In this document: positions 36,907-61,895 of the stretch, piece after piece | Position numbering within the stretch: the first letter of the stretch is position 1 | Layout of the letters: the number at the start of each line of letters is the position of its first letter | The notes under the pieces: generated by a model | Told to the model about the DNA's origin: nothing | The model's database searches: none | What the model saw: only the letters and a program-made list of their open reading frames with translations | Translations under genes and position numbers: made by a program | NCBI RefSeq assembly: GCF_032854445.1 | Contig: NC_088304.1 | Location: forward strand, 25,061,704 to 25,125,703 | Origin: Liolophura sinensis | Lineage: Eukaryota > Mollusca > Polyplacophora > Chitonida > Chitonidae | DNA: 64,000 nucleotides | Reading direction: 5' to 3'

Positions 36907-47953
<11,047 letters not shown>

Positions 47954-53383: not shown

Positions 53384-55638
53384 TCACTGCACCATCTGTT
53401 TGCCACTGCCTCGTGCGAGTGATATGCCTGGACGGGTGTGGTGTTGAATTCCCTGTTCAGTTTCCTTTGCTGGTTTGTACACAGGGACCAGGTCATACAC
53501 AATACTGATGAAGGCCTTATAGCTCATCAGATATTCTACTTCCTCCAAATTACCAACAGCATTTTTCCATTCTTCATGAATTCCCTTTAAAATCAATCAG
53601 ACAAGTTAAATACAGGGTGATCCATTTTTGTAACATTAGCTGTGGCATTCAAATAAAATTAATATAATTAAATATGTATACAGCAGTATAGAAAAAGTCC
53701 TACAGAATCGCCTGAAAGTTCAAAACAGGTGAGTCTAATTAACAGTACACGAAGATAAATATGGTAAATCATACATGTACCTGCAGTCCTATATCACTGG
53801 AAGAGGTGAGTGAAGAAAGAGTTATCTTTCCATAGCTTCCAACTTTTTGGCTATTACATGTATCTCCACAAGCTGGTTTCATGCGTGTGGAACAAAACAG
53901 AAAAGAAAAAAACTCTTTGCACGCCGGCCTATACCAATGCCGGTGAAATTTTAACAAACTCTATTTCTTAATTACTGGTTACTGTTTTTACAGGTGATAT
54001 ACACTTTTTGCAATACAGCCAAATGCATACACACAATCAAAAGATAACTTCTTGTAACTGCTACAGTAAGTGAATGGACAGGTAATCTCAAACTGCTCTG
54101 ACAGAAACGACTCTGGAATCTGCAATTATTCAAGTTTTTAAAGTTTAACAGAAATGAGCTCTGAATTCTAGAAGTTGCAAAACAATCCAGTTTATACGTG
54201 TAGATGACCCCCATAGCTTTCAAGCAAAATATATTTTAAGAAAAAAAAAAAACTGAGAGAGACGTTTACATAAAAAAGTGCTCAGCTCCAAAACAGAAAT
54301 AATGATAATACTTCTACATTTTAGACGGGCACACATATTATTTTATGAGGTCTACAAAATCTGCACCTTAATCAAATCTATACAGCTTATCCAATCCGTA
54401 TGTATGTGTATATAAGATTCAGATGGGGCCTAAGCCGCTATGCTAACCACTATTTAACATATCAGAAGTTGATTTCACAAAGACAGTTTTGACTTTTAAG
54501 TCAAAAATTTAAAATAGGATATTAGAGCTTATTTTCGAGCCCTGCAAATTAAAATTTCGAGCATCTCATCAGCATTATCTTAAGACAAATGTGTCACAAT
54601 TTTATCTTCCATTATCGAAAACTAAACATTCTGAAAATGTTTGAAGTTTTGACCGAAGTCGGACGTGTCTTTGTGGAATTAACCCCTGGGTCTGCTTGCA
54701 TGAAGTCCTCTTAACTACCATGGCGATCAAGCACGGTAGGAATTATCTCGCCATGGCAGTCAGGGAACGATTCCACGCAGCCATTTTTGACTCTTCTACT
54801 AGTCAAACCTTGAAATATGATATTCTTAGTCTTGGACCAGTTAATTTCTTGACCACTTCATGAATGTTATCTTAAGACAAATATGTCTAAATTCCAGCTT
54901 CTTCCAGCTAGTAATTTTTATCAAAAAGTAAAAATTGCTAGAGATTTTTTCAATTTTGACTCGAGTCAGGAATGGCTTTATGGAAATGGCTCCCTTTACA
55001 CTAAGAGTGCTTTGTGTAAGTTGGCCGTGCTAGCCTGTTAAGCCCTCCCCCTCCAGCCCCCCCCCCCCCACCCCACCCCCCCCAACCAGTGACTGCAATG
55101 TTTAGGTAAGCTTACGCGCAACATGTTTTTAAGCATTCAAAGATATGTCAAGTATTCTTGCTTTGCAACAGTACCAGTACTACCACTGTTGTGGCATCCT
55201 AGTGATGAAACACCCAGTGAAAAAGCATGCACAAATTCTTCACTGGCAGCATCTTTGTTCCCAAACAGTGGAGACATCCAACAGATGGATTGTTGGCAAA
55301 TTATTCCTGCTCTAACAATTGTAAGATTCCTGAATTACGGCATCAGAAGTTCACAACGACCTGAGACCTATTTCAATTTGCTACACGACATGTATGTATG
55401 TATGTATGTGTGTATGTATGTATGTATGTTTGTATTTATGACAAGAGCTCAGAGGCATCAGTCTCTATGTATGTATGTATGTATTTATGACAAGAGCTCA
55501 GAGGCGATTCTGATATTGAAGAGAATGTTGACATTTTCCCATAAAACAAGCAGTCTATTTTGAAGCAATGTACCTGTACCAGCATTAGCTGGTGACTCAT
55601 CATTGTACCAAGGTGACAAATTTTACAGAGCACTATTT
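53384..55638 (-). CDS. Candidate exons of an unrecognised minus-strand gene
   Basis: Four possible exons, read on the minus strand, join in phase: 55574-55638 (acceptor ttctgacag; ILCKICHLGT-like peptide), 54005-54119 (acceptor taattgcag; IPESFLSEQFEITCPFTYC then SSYKKLSFDC), 53781-53872 (acceptor gaaaccag; CGDTCNSQKVGSYGKITLSS) and 53384-53584 (acceptor gattttaaag; GIHEEWKNAVGNLEEVEYL, MSYKAFISIVYDLVPVYKP, then a stop at 53,384). The last exon is the most convincing: 66 residues of ordinary protein composition behind a good acceptor. Donors of the others (gtacat, gtgtat) are poor. I do not recognise the protein and propose no function. It could be a real gene downstream of UBE2G1 on the same strand, or chance frames. 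Confidence 0.25.
55385..55485. repeat. (ATGT)n microsatellite, partly duplicated
   Basis: tatgtatgtatgtatgtgtg-type tract at 55,388-55,435. A second short (tatg)n and the flanking phrase atttatgacaagagctcaga both recur about 50 bp further on, so a ~55-bp tandem duplication is present. Confidence 0.85.
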
Positions 55639-56734: not shown

Positions 56735-58041
56735 CATTGAGATACACTGTATCACACAGATCTCACCGTACTAAACAATCCACTGTATCACACAGATCTC
56801 ACTGTACTAAACCAATCCACTGTATCACACAGATCTCACCACACTAAACAATCCACTGTATCACACAGATCTCACCACACTAAACAATCCACTGTATCAC
56901 ACAGATCTCACTGTACTAAACAATCCACTGTATCACACAGATCTCACCACACTAAACAATCCACTGTATCACACAGATCTCACCGTACTAAACAATCCAC
57001 TGTATCACACAGGTCTCACCACACTAAACAATCCACTGTATCACACAGATCTCACCGTACTAAACAATCCACTGTATCACACAGATCTCACCATACTAAA
57101 CAATCCACTGTATCACACAGATCTCACCGTACTAAACAATCTGCTGTATCACACAGATCTCACCACACTAAACAATCCACTGTATCACAGATCTCACCAC
57201 ACTAAACAATCCACTGTATCACACAGATCTCACCGTACTAAACAATCCACTGTATCACACAGATCTCACCGTACTAAACAGTCCACTGTATCACACAGAT
57301 CTCACTGTACTAAACAATCCACTGTATCACACAGATCTCACCGTACTAAACAATCCACTGTATCACACAGATCTCACCACACTAAACAATCCACTGTATC
57401 ACACAGATCTCACCATACTAAACAATCCACTGTATCACACAGATCTCACTGTACTAAACAATCCACTGTATCACACAGATCTCACTGTACTAAACAATCC
57501 ACTGTATCACACAGATCTCACTGTACTAAACAATCCACTGTATCACACAGATCTCACTGTACTAAACAATCCACTGTATCACACAGATCTCACCACACTA
57601 AACAATCCACTGTATCACACAGATCTCACCGTACTAAACAATCCACTGTATCACACAGATCTCACCGTACTAAACAATCCACTGTATCACACAGATCTGA
57701 CTGTACTAAACAATCCACTGTATCACACAGATCTCACCGTACTAAACAATCCACTGTATCACACAGATCTCACCACACTAAACAATCCACTGTATCACAC
57801 AGATCTCACCATACTAAACAATCCACTGTATCACACAGATCTCACCGTACTAAACAATCCACTGTATCACACAGATCTCACTGTACTAAACAATCCACTG
57901 TATCACACAGATCTCACTGTCCTAAACAATCCACTGTATCACACAGATCTCACCGTACTAAACAATCCACTGTATCACACAGATCTCACTGTCCTAAACA
58001 ATCCACTGTATCACACAGATCTCACCGTACTAAACAATCCA
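56735..58041. repeat. 36-bp minisatellite, 36 units, just downstream of the UBE2G1 stop
   Basis: Units of ccactgtatcacacagatct + caccgtactaaacaat, almost identical apart from one four-base spot. By my count 13 units read ccgt, 11 ctgt, 9 ccac and 3 ccat there. All but one keep agatct. The array ends about 80 bp from the UBE2G1 stop codon and may be transcribed as 3' UTR. Confidence 0.95.
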
Positions 58042-58119
58042 CACACTTACACTATTACCACTGTCTGGCTATCAGTGCTCACCTTTTGCATATAGGTTAA
58101 TAATTCCTGAACACGAAGA

Positions 58120-58194
58120 TCAACACTCCTGACTTTTTCGCACACACTGAGTAACTCGTCTCTTGAATTCTTCTGGATGTTCTCGCCACATTTT
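58120..58194 (-). CDS. UBE2G1: UBE2G1 last coding exon
   Basis: Acceptor ttttgtag on the minus strand. KMWREHPEEFKRRVTQCV then RKSQEC and TGA at 58,122-58,120. Four residues shorter at the end than the human protein as I recall it. The UTR side contains a further donor-like AAAAG/GTGAGC at about 58,085. Confidence 0.93.
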   Translation of the reverse strand, partial: KMWREHPEEFKRRVTQCVRKSQEC

Positions 58195-61100
58195 CTACAA
58201 AACAAAAAAAAAACAAAACAAAAACTTAGCTTCACTACCATGCAGATAGATTGTGTGGAGGTACCAAGTGCACTTAGCTAAGAGCTACTTAACGCTAAGT
58301 AAGCTTCCGGACACTAGGTACAAATCTTTGCGAAGATTTATTCCTTATTTATTAAAATTATTTGTTCAGCTGATTACTGTTTAATGCCATACTCAAAAAT
58401 GTTTCACTGGTAAGATGGTTTGATATTTGGAGAAAACCTGGGATAACCCACAGACCTCTGGCAAGTTACTGATGAACTTTCCACTTGTTCCACGTATGCC
58501 ATACTGGTGACAAAGAAGTTGTCTCCCAACTATGGCTAATGGCCCTACAAGTGTGTTGTCTAACAAGCCCTTCTTGTCTAAAAGGCCCATATGAACAGTG
58601 AGAGCAGTTGAATGTACCAAGTGAGTGCTTGGGATTTAACGTCGTACTTAACAATTTTTCAGCCATATGACGATGAAGGAATCCTTAAGAATGCATGTAA
58701 TGTGCCTCCTTGTCGCGGGACATATTTCCACCGCTCTTTTATCTGGTGCTGCTCCACTGAGACGGCTTACCGAAAGCAAGTAAGCCACCCCAAACAAGCC
58801 ATACTGATATGGGTCAGTTGCACTATCCCCTTCACGCTGAACGCCAAGCGAGGAAGGTGCATTTTCCTCTTTTAAAGGTGTGAATCGACCTAGGATTGAC
58901 CCTGGATCTACCACTCCTGAAGCGGACACTCTACCAACTGTGCTAGCGATAAGTAATGAAAATAATCATACAGTATCATAACACAGATATGACAGATACA
59001 CGGTGAATCACCTAAAATTTCATCCCCTCAAAAAGTGTGTTTTTATGGGCAAAATTATGTCATAAAATATTACCTCGGGTGATGAAACTTACATTTTTCC
59101 AGCACAATATCACTCTACCTTCCGAACAAACCCCAGAACAAAATTTCTAAGAAAAACAGAATCAGAATCAGGAAAAAAGTGCTATGTAAGTCACAGGCCA
59201 AATTTGGGGTCATTTATTCTACACGTAAGCCTCATTTCTCTGTATACTCACTGCTGCATCTACATTGGCTGGTGACTCATCATTGGGGTCAGCTAACATT
59301 GATATCACACTAACAAGTATTGTCTCTACAGTATGTACTGGTAGCCAGCGCTCAGAGGCCTTCTCGTAACCAAACTTGTCATCCCCGGGCTCGTGTAGGA
59401 TTGATATACACACATTGCCGTCTTTGTCAACTGAAACCACAACAACAACACAGCGACACATGAAACACAAACTAAACAATGTCAATTCATGGCTACTCTG
59501 TGCCAATCTTCAACATTCTCCTTGGTCCTATCAAGACACTCACTAAGGTGTAAAACAAAGCGAATTTAACCCAGGCAAGACTGGCCCCTGAGTAAGATTT
59601 TACTGTGAAAAATGTTTCAGTTTCAGGTAAATAAAACTGGAGAAGTAATCAGAGTACATGTATGTCTTAACCACAAATTTGAGAGTTAAGTACCAGAACC
59701 CTGTAGTACATAAAACACTAGAAATCAGCATTTTGCTGATTCAGCTCCATGTTATTTATGACCTCCTGCTCATTGCACAGAACCCAGATGCTATGCTCAA
59801 AACTAGGAATACACTCAGAATTAAATTTAATACCAAATCTTAAAACAGGTGCCGGACATTTTTGATAATGTACCCTTGGAGAAAGCGGTAAGAGTGGTAA
59901 GTATGATCCCGTAACTTAATATTAAATCAAGGTTATTTGTGTGAAGTATCCCTGGTCCAATATTAAATAAGACAGATGATATGGAAGTCACCACATCTTC
60001 CAAAGGGGCGTTTCCATAAATGATAGGCACCAACTGGTGACTGATAAACTCATGTGGGACAGTCATTCAAAAAGGTCAATATATTATTTTAACATACAGG
60101 TGTATTTATATATATATTCAATACTCACTGTTTGGGTGCCAGATATCTGATATAAACACCATTTTTGGAGGTCGATGAGGATACTCTTTGGGAAATATCA
60201 GATGCGCTTTAAATACTCCCCCCTCACTGTGAATGAAGCCAGAAAAACAAGGGAGATGACAACAAGAGTTCATCAAGTATATTAACAAGTCAATATGTGC
60301 CATTAATGACAAGTACACAGGCACTAATGACAAGGACACATGCACTAATAATGAGTACACTCACACTAACAAACAGACCAAATTTTTACTTGGACATCAT
60401 TATTACTTAATTGTTCAAGTGAACAAGACTTACAAGTAGGTATTCCCAGGCCCTGTGACCAGTACATAGGCATTCCTATCCGTCACATGTACACGTGAAC
60501 ATCACTTACAAGCAGGTATACCCATGCCCAGTGCCCAGTACATAGGCATTACTGTCAGTCACATGTACAAGTGAACACTTACAAGCAGGTATCCCCATGC
60601 CTTATGTCCAGTACATGTACACAGGCATTACTATCAGTCACATGTATAAGTGAACATCACTTACAAGCAAGTATCCCCAGGCCCTATGCCCAGTACACAA
60701 ACATTGCTATCAGCCACATGTACAAGTGAACATCACTTACAAGCAAGTATCCCCAGGCCCTATGCCCAGTACACAAACATTGCTATCAGCCACATGTACA
60801 AGTGAACATCACTTACAAGCAAGTATCCCACGGCCTATGCCCAGAACATAGACATTACTATCAGTCACATGTACAAGTGAACATCACTTACAAGCAGGTA
60901 TCCCCAGGCCCTACACCCAGAACATAGACATTGCTATCAGTCACATTTACAAGTGAAAACCACTAACAAGCAGGTATCCCCCATGCCCTTTGCCCAGTAC
61001 ACAAACATTACTATCAGTCACATGTACAAGTGAACATCACTCACAAGCAAGTATTCCCAGGCCCTATGTACATCCAGTACATAGACATTGCTATCAGTCA

Positions 61101-61895
61101 CATTTACAAGTGAAAACCACTAACAAGCAGGTATCCCCCATGCCCTACGTCCAGTACACAGACATTACTTTCAGTCACATGTACAAGTCAATACCACTTA
61201 CAAGCAGGTATCCCCAGGCCCTATGTCCAGTACATACATGTAGACATTGCTATCAGTCACATGTACAAGCGAACTTTACTTACAAGCAAGTATCCCCAGG
61301 CCCTATGTCCAGTACACAGACATTACTATCAGCCGCATGCACAAGTGAACATTCCTGACAAGCAGGTATCCCCAGGCCCTATGTCCAGAACACAGACATT
61401 ACTATCAGCCGCATGTACAAGCGAACTTTACTTACAAGCAAGTATCCCCAGGCCCTATGTCCAGTGCACAGACATTACTATCAGCCGCATGCACAAGTGA
61501 ACATTCCTGACAAGCAGGTATCCCCAGGCCCTATGTCCAGAACACAGACATTACTGTCAGTCACATGTACAAGTGAACATTTACAAACAGGTATCCCCAT
61601 GCCCTATGTCCAGTACATGTACTTAGACATTACTGTTAGTCACATGTACAAGTGAACACTTACAAGAAGGTATTACCAGGCCCTATGTCCAGTACATAGG
61701 CATTACTATCACTTACAAGCAAACATCCTGAGACCCTATGTCTAGTACTTAGACATCACTATAAGTTATATCTACATTTGAACAAGACTTACAAGCAAGT
61801 ATCCTGAGGTCCTATGACCAGTACTTCCCACTTGTAAATATCATCGTCATCTATGAGGCCTGCAGAGAATCCCTCCATGGGTCGCCGCCTAAGCT
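58120..61895 (-). CDS. UBE2G1: UBE2G1-type E2 ubiquitin-conjugating enzyme (last four exons; first exon not in view)
   Basis: Minus-strand exons 61793-61895, 60129-60226, 59252-59430 and 58120-58194 join in phase (151 codons plus TGA). The peptide runs ELRRRPMEGFSAGLIDDD, DIYKWEVLVIGPQDTC, FEGGVFKAHLIFPKEYPH, RPPKMVFISDIWHPN, IDKDGNVCISILHEPGDD, KFGYEKASERWLPVHTVE, TILVSVISMLADPNDESP, ANVDAA and KMWREHPEEFKRRVTQCV then RKSQEC. It has the HPN motif, the active-site Cys (codon at 59,410-59,408) in NVCISIL, and the acidic-loop insertion after HEPG typical of UBE2G1/UBC7-class E2s, which build Lys48-linked chains. HEPGDDKFGYEKASERW and ISMLADPNDESPANVDAA point to UBE2G1 and not UBE2G2. About 15 N-terminal residues are missing, presumably in a first exon beyond 64,000. 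Confidence 0.94.
58621..58950 (-). mobile_element. SINE family B, reverse, in the last UBE2G1 intron
   Basis: The plus strand reads agtgcttgggatttaacgtc, gtacttaacaatttttcagc, catatgacgatgaaggaatc, gaacgccaagcgaggaaggt, and ends gacctaggattgaccctgga then accaactgtgctagcg, the complement of the tRNA-like head. Oriented with the gene. Confidence 0.8.
58995..59160. repeat. Dispersed repeat family D, in the last UBE2G1 intron
   Basis: Third copy: cacctaaaatttcatcccc, tgtttttatgggcaaaatta, tgatgaaacttacatttttc, ctaccttccgaacaaacccc. Compare 5,017 and 22,985. Confidence 0.6.
59252..59430 (-). CDS. UBE2G1: UBE2G1 exon with the catalytic cysteine
   Basis: Acceptor gtggtttcag, donor GTGAGT. Encodes IDKDGNVCISILHEPGDD to PANVDAA (60 codons counting the shared first codon). 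Confidence 0.95.
60129..60226 (-). CDS. UBE2G1: UBE2G1 exon with the HPN motif
   Basis: Acceptor cattcacag, donor GTGAGT. Encodes FEGGVFKAHLIFPKEYPH, RPPKMVFISDIWHPN. The first and last codons are split. Confidence 0.95.
60428..61786 (-). repeat. 18-unit, ~76-bp array made from a UBE2G1 exon end and its 5' splice site
   Basis: Plus-strand units read acttacaagcaggtatcccc, aggccctatgtccagtaca, tagacattactatcagtcac, atgtacaagtgaacatc. The preceding exon's end reads, on the same strand, acttacaagcaagtatcctg, aggtcctatgaccagtact. About 39 bp are thus shared, including the donor (acttac is the reverse of GTAAGT) and the codons of VLVIGPQDTC. By my count about 12 of 18 units keep an exact acttac; others read actaac, actcac, ctgac or atttac. 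The unit next to the exon is the most exon-like (cctgag, agtactt). Confidence 0.9.
61793..61895 (-). CDS. UBE2G1: UBE2G1 exon, N-terminal part of the UBC fold
   Basis: Acceptor tgtgtttacag, donor GTAAGT. Encodes ELRRRPMEGFSAGLIDDD, DIYKWEVLVIGPQDTC plus two bases. Its end is duplicated in the neighbouring array. Confidence 0.95.

Follow-up and report, generated by a model that had tools for sequence, protein, structure and literature searches.

What becomes of a gene when one of its own 5' splice sites has been multiplied within the intron that it opens, and what does such an array represent? The question is raised by UBE2G1 in a chiton genome of 609 Mb, in which a first-pass annotation of the window (the whole 64,000-nucleotide stretch of DNA analysed here) had described a minisatellite of 18 tandem copies of an exon end together with its donor. 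The gene lies on the minus strand, and tblastn with a human UBE2G1 query gave matches at 61896-61798, 60225-60130, 59434-59252 and 58194-58126. These four UBE2G1 exon matches in the window correspond to coding exon E2 (61793-61895, minus strand, ending in phase 2; assigned by sequence, PDB match and tblastn), E3 (60130-60226, with its acceptor side at 60226), E4 (59228-59434, for which a profile match to UQ_con positions 74-130 supplemented tblastn) and a C-terminal exon match (58126-58194), the first coding exon not being among the located parts. E2 reads LRRRPMEGFSAGLIDDDDIYKWEVLVIGPQDTC, and when E2 and E3 were joined the top PDB match was UBE2G1 (5.7e-33). The true 5' splice site of E2, CTT/GTAAGT, was placed at 61787-61792 from the sequence and from comparison of the donors.

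To begin with the anatomy of the array, TRF reported 76 bp x 16.9 at 60412-61711, and splitting by hand with alignment yielded 18 intronic units at 60389-61747 (U01-U18, 53-82 bp and mostly 76 bp long) plus the true junction at 61748-61823 as a nineteenth copy, in agreement with the number first described. The junction copy, U00, is the authentic unit of exon end, donor and 45 nt of intron, so that the array has the authentic exon boundary at one edge, as a unit in its own right. The adjoining unit, U01 (61695-61747), carries an internal deletion that leaves 53 bp and is the sole unit with the exon's CA of CTCAGG, while U18 (60389-60464) lies farthest away. Units account for 1,359 nt of the 1,566-nt intron, and 207 nt make up the rest. 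The last 32 coding bases of E2 are identical to the unit consensus at 27 of 32 positions (score 39). None of 1,934 random pieces of the window reached this score, their best being 26, nor did any of 2,000 shuffled exons, which scored 23 at most, and the same consensus scored only 12 and 15 against E3 and E4; the comparison with random window sequence was the one on which, according to the first-pass annotation, the exon origin of the units could fail, and the match lies well beyond it. Since the intron half matches as well, with 29-35 of the junction's 45 intron bases matched in U02-U18, the unit consists of exon end, donor and about 45 nt of intron. We rejected a dispersed satellite, as a whole-genome search, which is weak on repeats, found no second genomic copy of the array.

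Because assemblies are error-prone at repeats, we considered whether the array is an assembly artefact, and we regard this as extremely improbable: U04 and U06 are the sole identical pair while the other units differ, and the published chiton assembly was, according to the accessible portion of its report, built from HiFi reads that, at 8,347 bp on average, exceed the array in length (PMC11068029). The units U04-U07 (61233-61542), in which U04 equals U06 and U05 is 91% alike to U07, represent a recent duplication of a unit pair, and U09/U11 and U13/U14 are each 96% alike. The direction of copying was a further point, for conversion from an intronic minisatellite may have rewritten the exon end and so given the exon its likeness to the array. 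At 61793-61800 the chiton exon encodes DTCF, against DTLY in UBE2G1 of human and C. elegans, and the unit consensus has the same TGC TT as the chiton exon, as conversion would predict. Against this, VLVIGP-DT, the shared stretch upstream, is kept in human and worm UBE2G1, and on the intron side the units match the intron of the junction itself, which makes conversion very improbable in our judgement. Since UBE2G1 of human and C. elegans conserves the segment into which the copied exon end falls, the exon is the likely source; if so, the duplication would be younger than the change of LY to TGC TT in the chiton exon.

The order in which the array grew was less easily read. It had been proposed that the unit next to the exon resembles it most and that the array grew outward from the junction. 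U01 indeed has the highest identity to U00 of all units (79%, over the 53 columns that it retains), but within the 31 columns of the exon half it matches the junction at only 25, compared with 27 in U07, U14 and U15. Moreover, at the 15 columns where the junction departs from the unit majority, the junction-specific state is shared by U18 at 6 and by U01 at 3, U02 and six other units sharing 1 each and the remaining nine units none. IQ-TREE placed U00 and U18 as sisters (92/81, branch not starred), and the alternative grouping of U00 with U01 was not rejected (p-AU 0.274). By path distance U02 was nearest to U00 (0.28, followed by 0.29 for U18), whole-unit identity to U00 was 78.1% for U02, 77.6% for U15 and 77.6% for U18, and in a whole-array search the end of U18 aligned with the junction (85%). 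Outward growth is thus neither shown nor excluded by these comparisons. The identity of U04 and U06 indicates recent turnover, and we favour, with no claim to proof, an array whose edges may be old and whose interior turns over, resembling the pattern of the amphioxus globin gene BflGb6; the edges of such clusters are reported to escape homogenisation in the part of that account available to us (PMC3087553).

If the exon end has been copied together with its donor, the spliceosome would meet many decoy donors after the true one. A GT is present in 18 of 18 units, but the GTAAGT ascribed to every unit was found in 12, with GTGAGT in one and altered donors in five (U03, U04, U06, U09 and U11). 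Likewise, the peptide IGPGDTCL, which the units had been said to preserve, is exact in seven of 18 (U04-U08, U14 and U15), whereas U09, U11 and U13 have lost the frame. The true donor nine-mer, CTTGTAAGT, is shared by the same 12 of 18 decoys that carry GTAAGT. As a measure of donor strength we calculated U1 duplex energies over 11 bases, and 11 of the 12 decoys with the exact nine-mer gave -6.2 to -7.3 against -5.4 for the true donor, thus pairing better with U1. Undisturbed splicing is therefore not self-evident. As the first-pass annotation had pointed out, skipping of the true donor would lead into an in-frame TAA; this stop (61791-61789, minus strand, located by reading the frame) lies at least 72 nt before any decoy junction, 72 nt ahead of the first and 1,355 nt ahead of the last, so that splicing at any one of the 18 is predicted to run through it, and the resulting transcripts would presumably undergo RNA decay. 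The stop is no evidence of design, because any phase-2 donor starting with GTAA yields the same one.

These decoys could act as a regulatory brake by competing for U1 and shunting part of the UBE2G1 transcripts into a stop-containing, decaying form, and the equality of 12 donors with the true nine-mer, together with the TAA ahead of all 18, speaks for such a brake. Conservation among the 18 units was 0.92 for the donor six-mer, 0.94 for the nine-mer, 0.91 for the exon half and 0.89 for the other intron sequence. The nine-mer is thus slightly better conserved than the rest of the unit and ranks 7th of 68 windows, which might be taken in favour of a brake, but this rank is unremarkable and not a clear sign of selection, and we rejected selection on the decoy donors on these grounds. 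Donors are altered in five of 18 units, and amphioxus arrays of the same kind were reported, in the accessible text, not to interfere with splicing (PMC3087553). We consequently hold a brake to be improbable. Of the roles suggested for the array at the outset, neither buffer nor brake gained positive evidence, and a tolerated accident would fit best.

With considerable confidence, we interpret the array as a splice junction that was duplicated in tandem, enlarged by unequal exchange and tolerated as mostly neutral. In the founding event, perhaps between short AAGTA repeats, a segment of about 76 bp that took in the exon end, the 5' splice site and some 45 nt of the intron would have been copied in tandem. 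Such an AAGTA run occurs at the exon-side start of the array (GGGAAG/TACTGG) and past its far end (CCAAG/TAAAAA), which suggests that a short repeat was the site of the founding duplication, although a shared run of five bases could be due to chance. The array would then have been enlarged and partly homogenised through unequal exchange. The gene would survive because its outermost donor still joins an intact frame, use of a decoy leading to the stop and to presumed RNA decay, and the array, sited in a minisatellite-rich region, would be mostly neutral.

Arrays of this kind had been thought to belong to no named class, which proved mistaken, since tandem duplications of an exon/intron boundary have been described in amphioxus as mirages (available portions of PMC3087553 and PMC3902484). 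Each unit of the UBE2G1 array combines exon sequence, a splice site and flanking intron, as a mirage unit does, and the array belongs to this known class as a donor-side member; what is new is the taxon, the copy number, the occurrence at both splice sites in one genome (see below) and the many identical competing sites. Work by Canestro from 2002 is reportedly the source cited for Adh3 in the amphioxus mirage literature. The accessible sections of the amphioxus reports describe mirages at either boundary in the globin genes BflGb6 and BflGb9, which seem to leave regular splicing undisturbed (PMC3087553), and additional cases in PGBD5 and TnC (PMC3902484). The chiton arrays resemble these in that tandem units extend across an exon-intron boundary, in that splice signals are kept in many units but not all, and in that donor-side and acceptor-side forms both occur. 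They differ in having a mollusc host and not a cephalochordate, and in having 18 and 43 extra units compared with the 6 and 3 given for two BflGb6 haplotypes in the portion available. Variable copy number and somatic instability count among the traits looked for in a mirage, and the UBE2G1 array is represented here by a single assembled haplotype. A literature search, with subscription journals mostly outside its reach, contained no mirage outside amphioxus among the matches listed, which is not proof of absence; among its candidates, we rejected the intron repeats of earthworm metallothionein, which in the accessible text are intronic minisatellites with no exon boundary seen (PMC12783039).

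Comparison with human genes places the decoys in a broader context. The minisatellite unit of human IFI6 (6-16/G1P3) is 12 bp long. As in the chiton, this minisatellite lies at an exon end and supplies repeated donors, but there, as far as the available account goes, the repeat donors are used and give three mRNAs, whereas use of the chiton decoys would lead into a stop. In human segmental duplications, internal tandem repeats at exon-intron boundaries similarly have the potential to alter splicing, although in the portion of the report available they concern recent paralogs with variable use, while the chiton case concerns one conserved gene (PMC2812944). The same report describes new introns at such human boundary repeats, and recruitment of mirage units was modelled for the amphioxus globins (PMC3087553), both within the parts accessible; it is conceivable that the UBE2G1 array, too, supplies material for the gain of introns or exons, with a unit being recruited as a new exon end, which would be compatible with a tolerated duplication. 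We saw no sign of recruitment, all 18 units being out of frame or carrying an in-frame stop and the unit length of 76 not being a multiple of three, and we consider this unlikely.

To see how common such junction arrays are, we sampled exons by family (UQ_con, kinases and Ras), taking part of each match list and fetching the DNA of those matches. In total 121 exon matches (108 + 13) were examined, and removal of the four from UBE2G1 and of one repeat (L024 = L004) left 116; fewer junctions than matches were tested, because many kinase matches sit in long open frames. One of the 116 other exon matches, a small sample, proved to be a unit of a junction array, at locus L072, where the best PDB match was Rab-35 (2e-18), and this RAB35 array is on the acceptor side. 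It occupies L072:3642-6899 (C10:1673141-1676398; TRF 74 bp x 44.2, 93% matches) and contains 43 extra 74-bp units, each composed of the end of the intron, the AG and as many as 53 bases of exon. AG is present in 43 of 43 decoys, 36 of which are identical to the true site in 18 bases of intron and 3 of exon, and reading on from the decoy in the exon's frame met a stop in all 43. Resemblance to the exon is greatest, by a single base, in the farthest unit (65/74, ten others having 64 or so), which has 2 of 10 exon-specific states, every other unit having at most one. The RAB35 array is the mirror image of that in UBE2G1, and its edge pattern leans narrowly in the same direction. The RAB35 locus bears further minisatellites at L072:1184-1956 (24 bp x 32.2) and L072:2049-3144 (96 bp x 11.5).

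Another one of the 116 showed an exon-end duplication in two copies: the last 33 bases of a UBE2-family exon (L083:482-586, minus strand) are copied once at 345-377 (27/33), about 130 bp downstream and without the GT, beside a 47-bp array that has no exon sequence. Three candidates were rejected, namely a Rab exon with a 26-bp array (L074), where the TRF call and the HMM match share 8 bases but the array starts after the donor and is intronic; a 15 bp x 1.9 row within a kinase match, with no junction (L054); and a 47-bp array adjoining an exon, in which no exon sequence was seen (L087). Two UBE2-family exon matches at L082:447-540 and 931-1024 lie in tandem and are 73% alike, one of them with TAG, and represent a duplicated exon.

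The two arrays extend the amphioxus repeat class to a mollusc, with two cases in one genome and one for each type of splice site. It is possible, though we advance it as somewhat less than an even chance, that mirages are no speciality of amphioxus but recur in minisatellite-rich animal genomes, at both splice sites and in dozens of copies, and that, of 13 core-identical sites in UBE2G1 and 37 in RAB35, the spliceosome takes the outermost on the basis of position alone. If this is true, the two loci are natural experiments in splice-site choice. Because 12 decoy donors and 36 decoy acceptors are core-identical to the true site, these introns could test the role of position, exon length and transcription order, and they could also show how such arrays feed intron gain.

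As to the setting, tandem arrays with a period of at least 10 cover 15.6% of the window (1-64000) compared with 6.5% of 277 kb of sampled loci. A duplicated exon edge was found in one of 14 window exons tested (10 of SMARCB1 and 4 of UBE2G1), namely UBE2G1 E2, and was absent from the other 13. SMARCB1 itself is represented at 36921-47950 on the plus strand by ten exon matches, none with a duplicated edge. Within the rest of UBE2G1, E4 contains an internal 23-bp match to 55583-55605, and an array of 36 bp x 36.1 at 56745-58042 ends about 84 bp from the C-terminal exon match.
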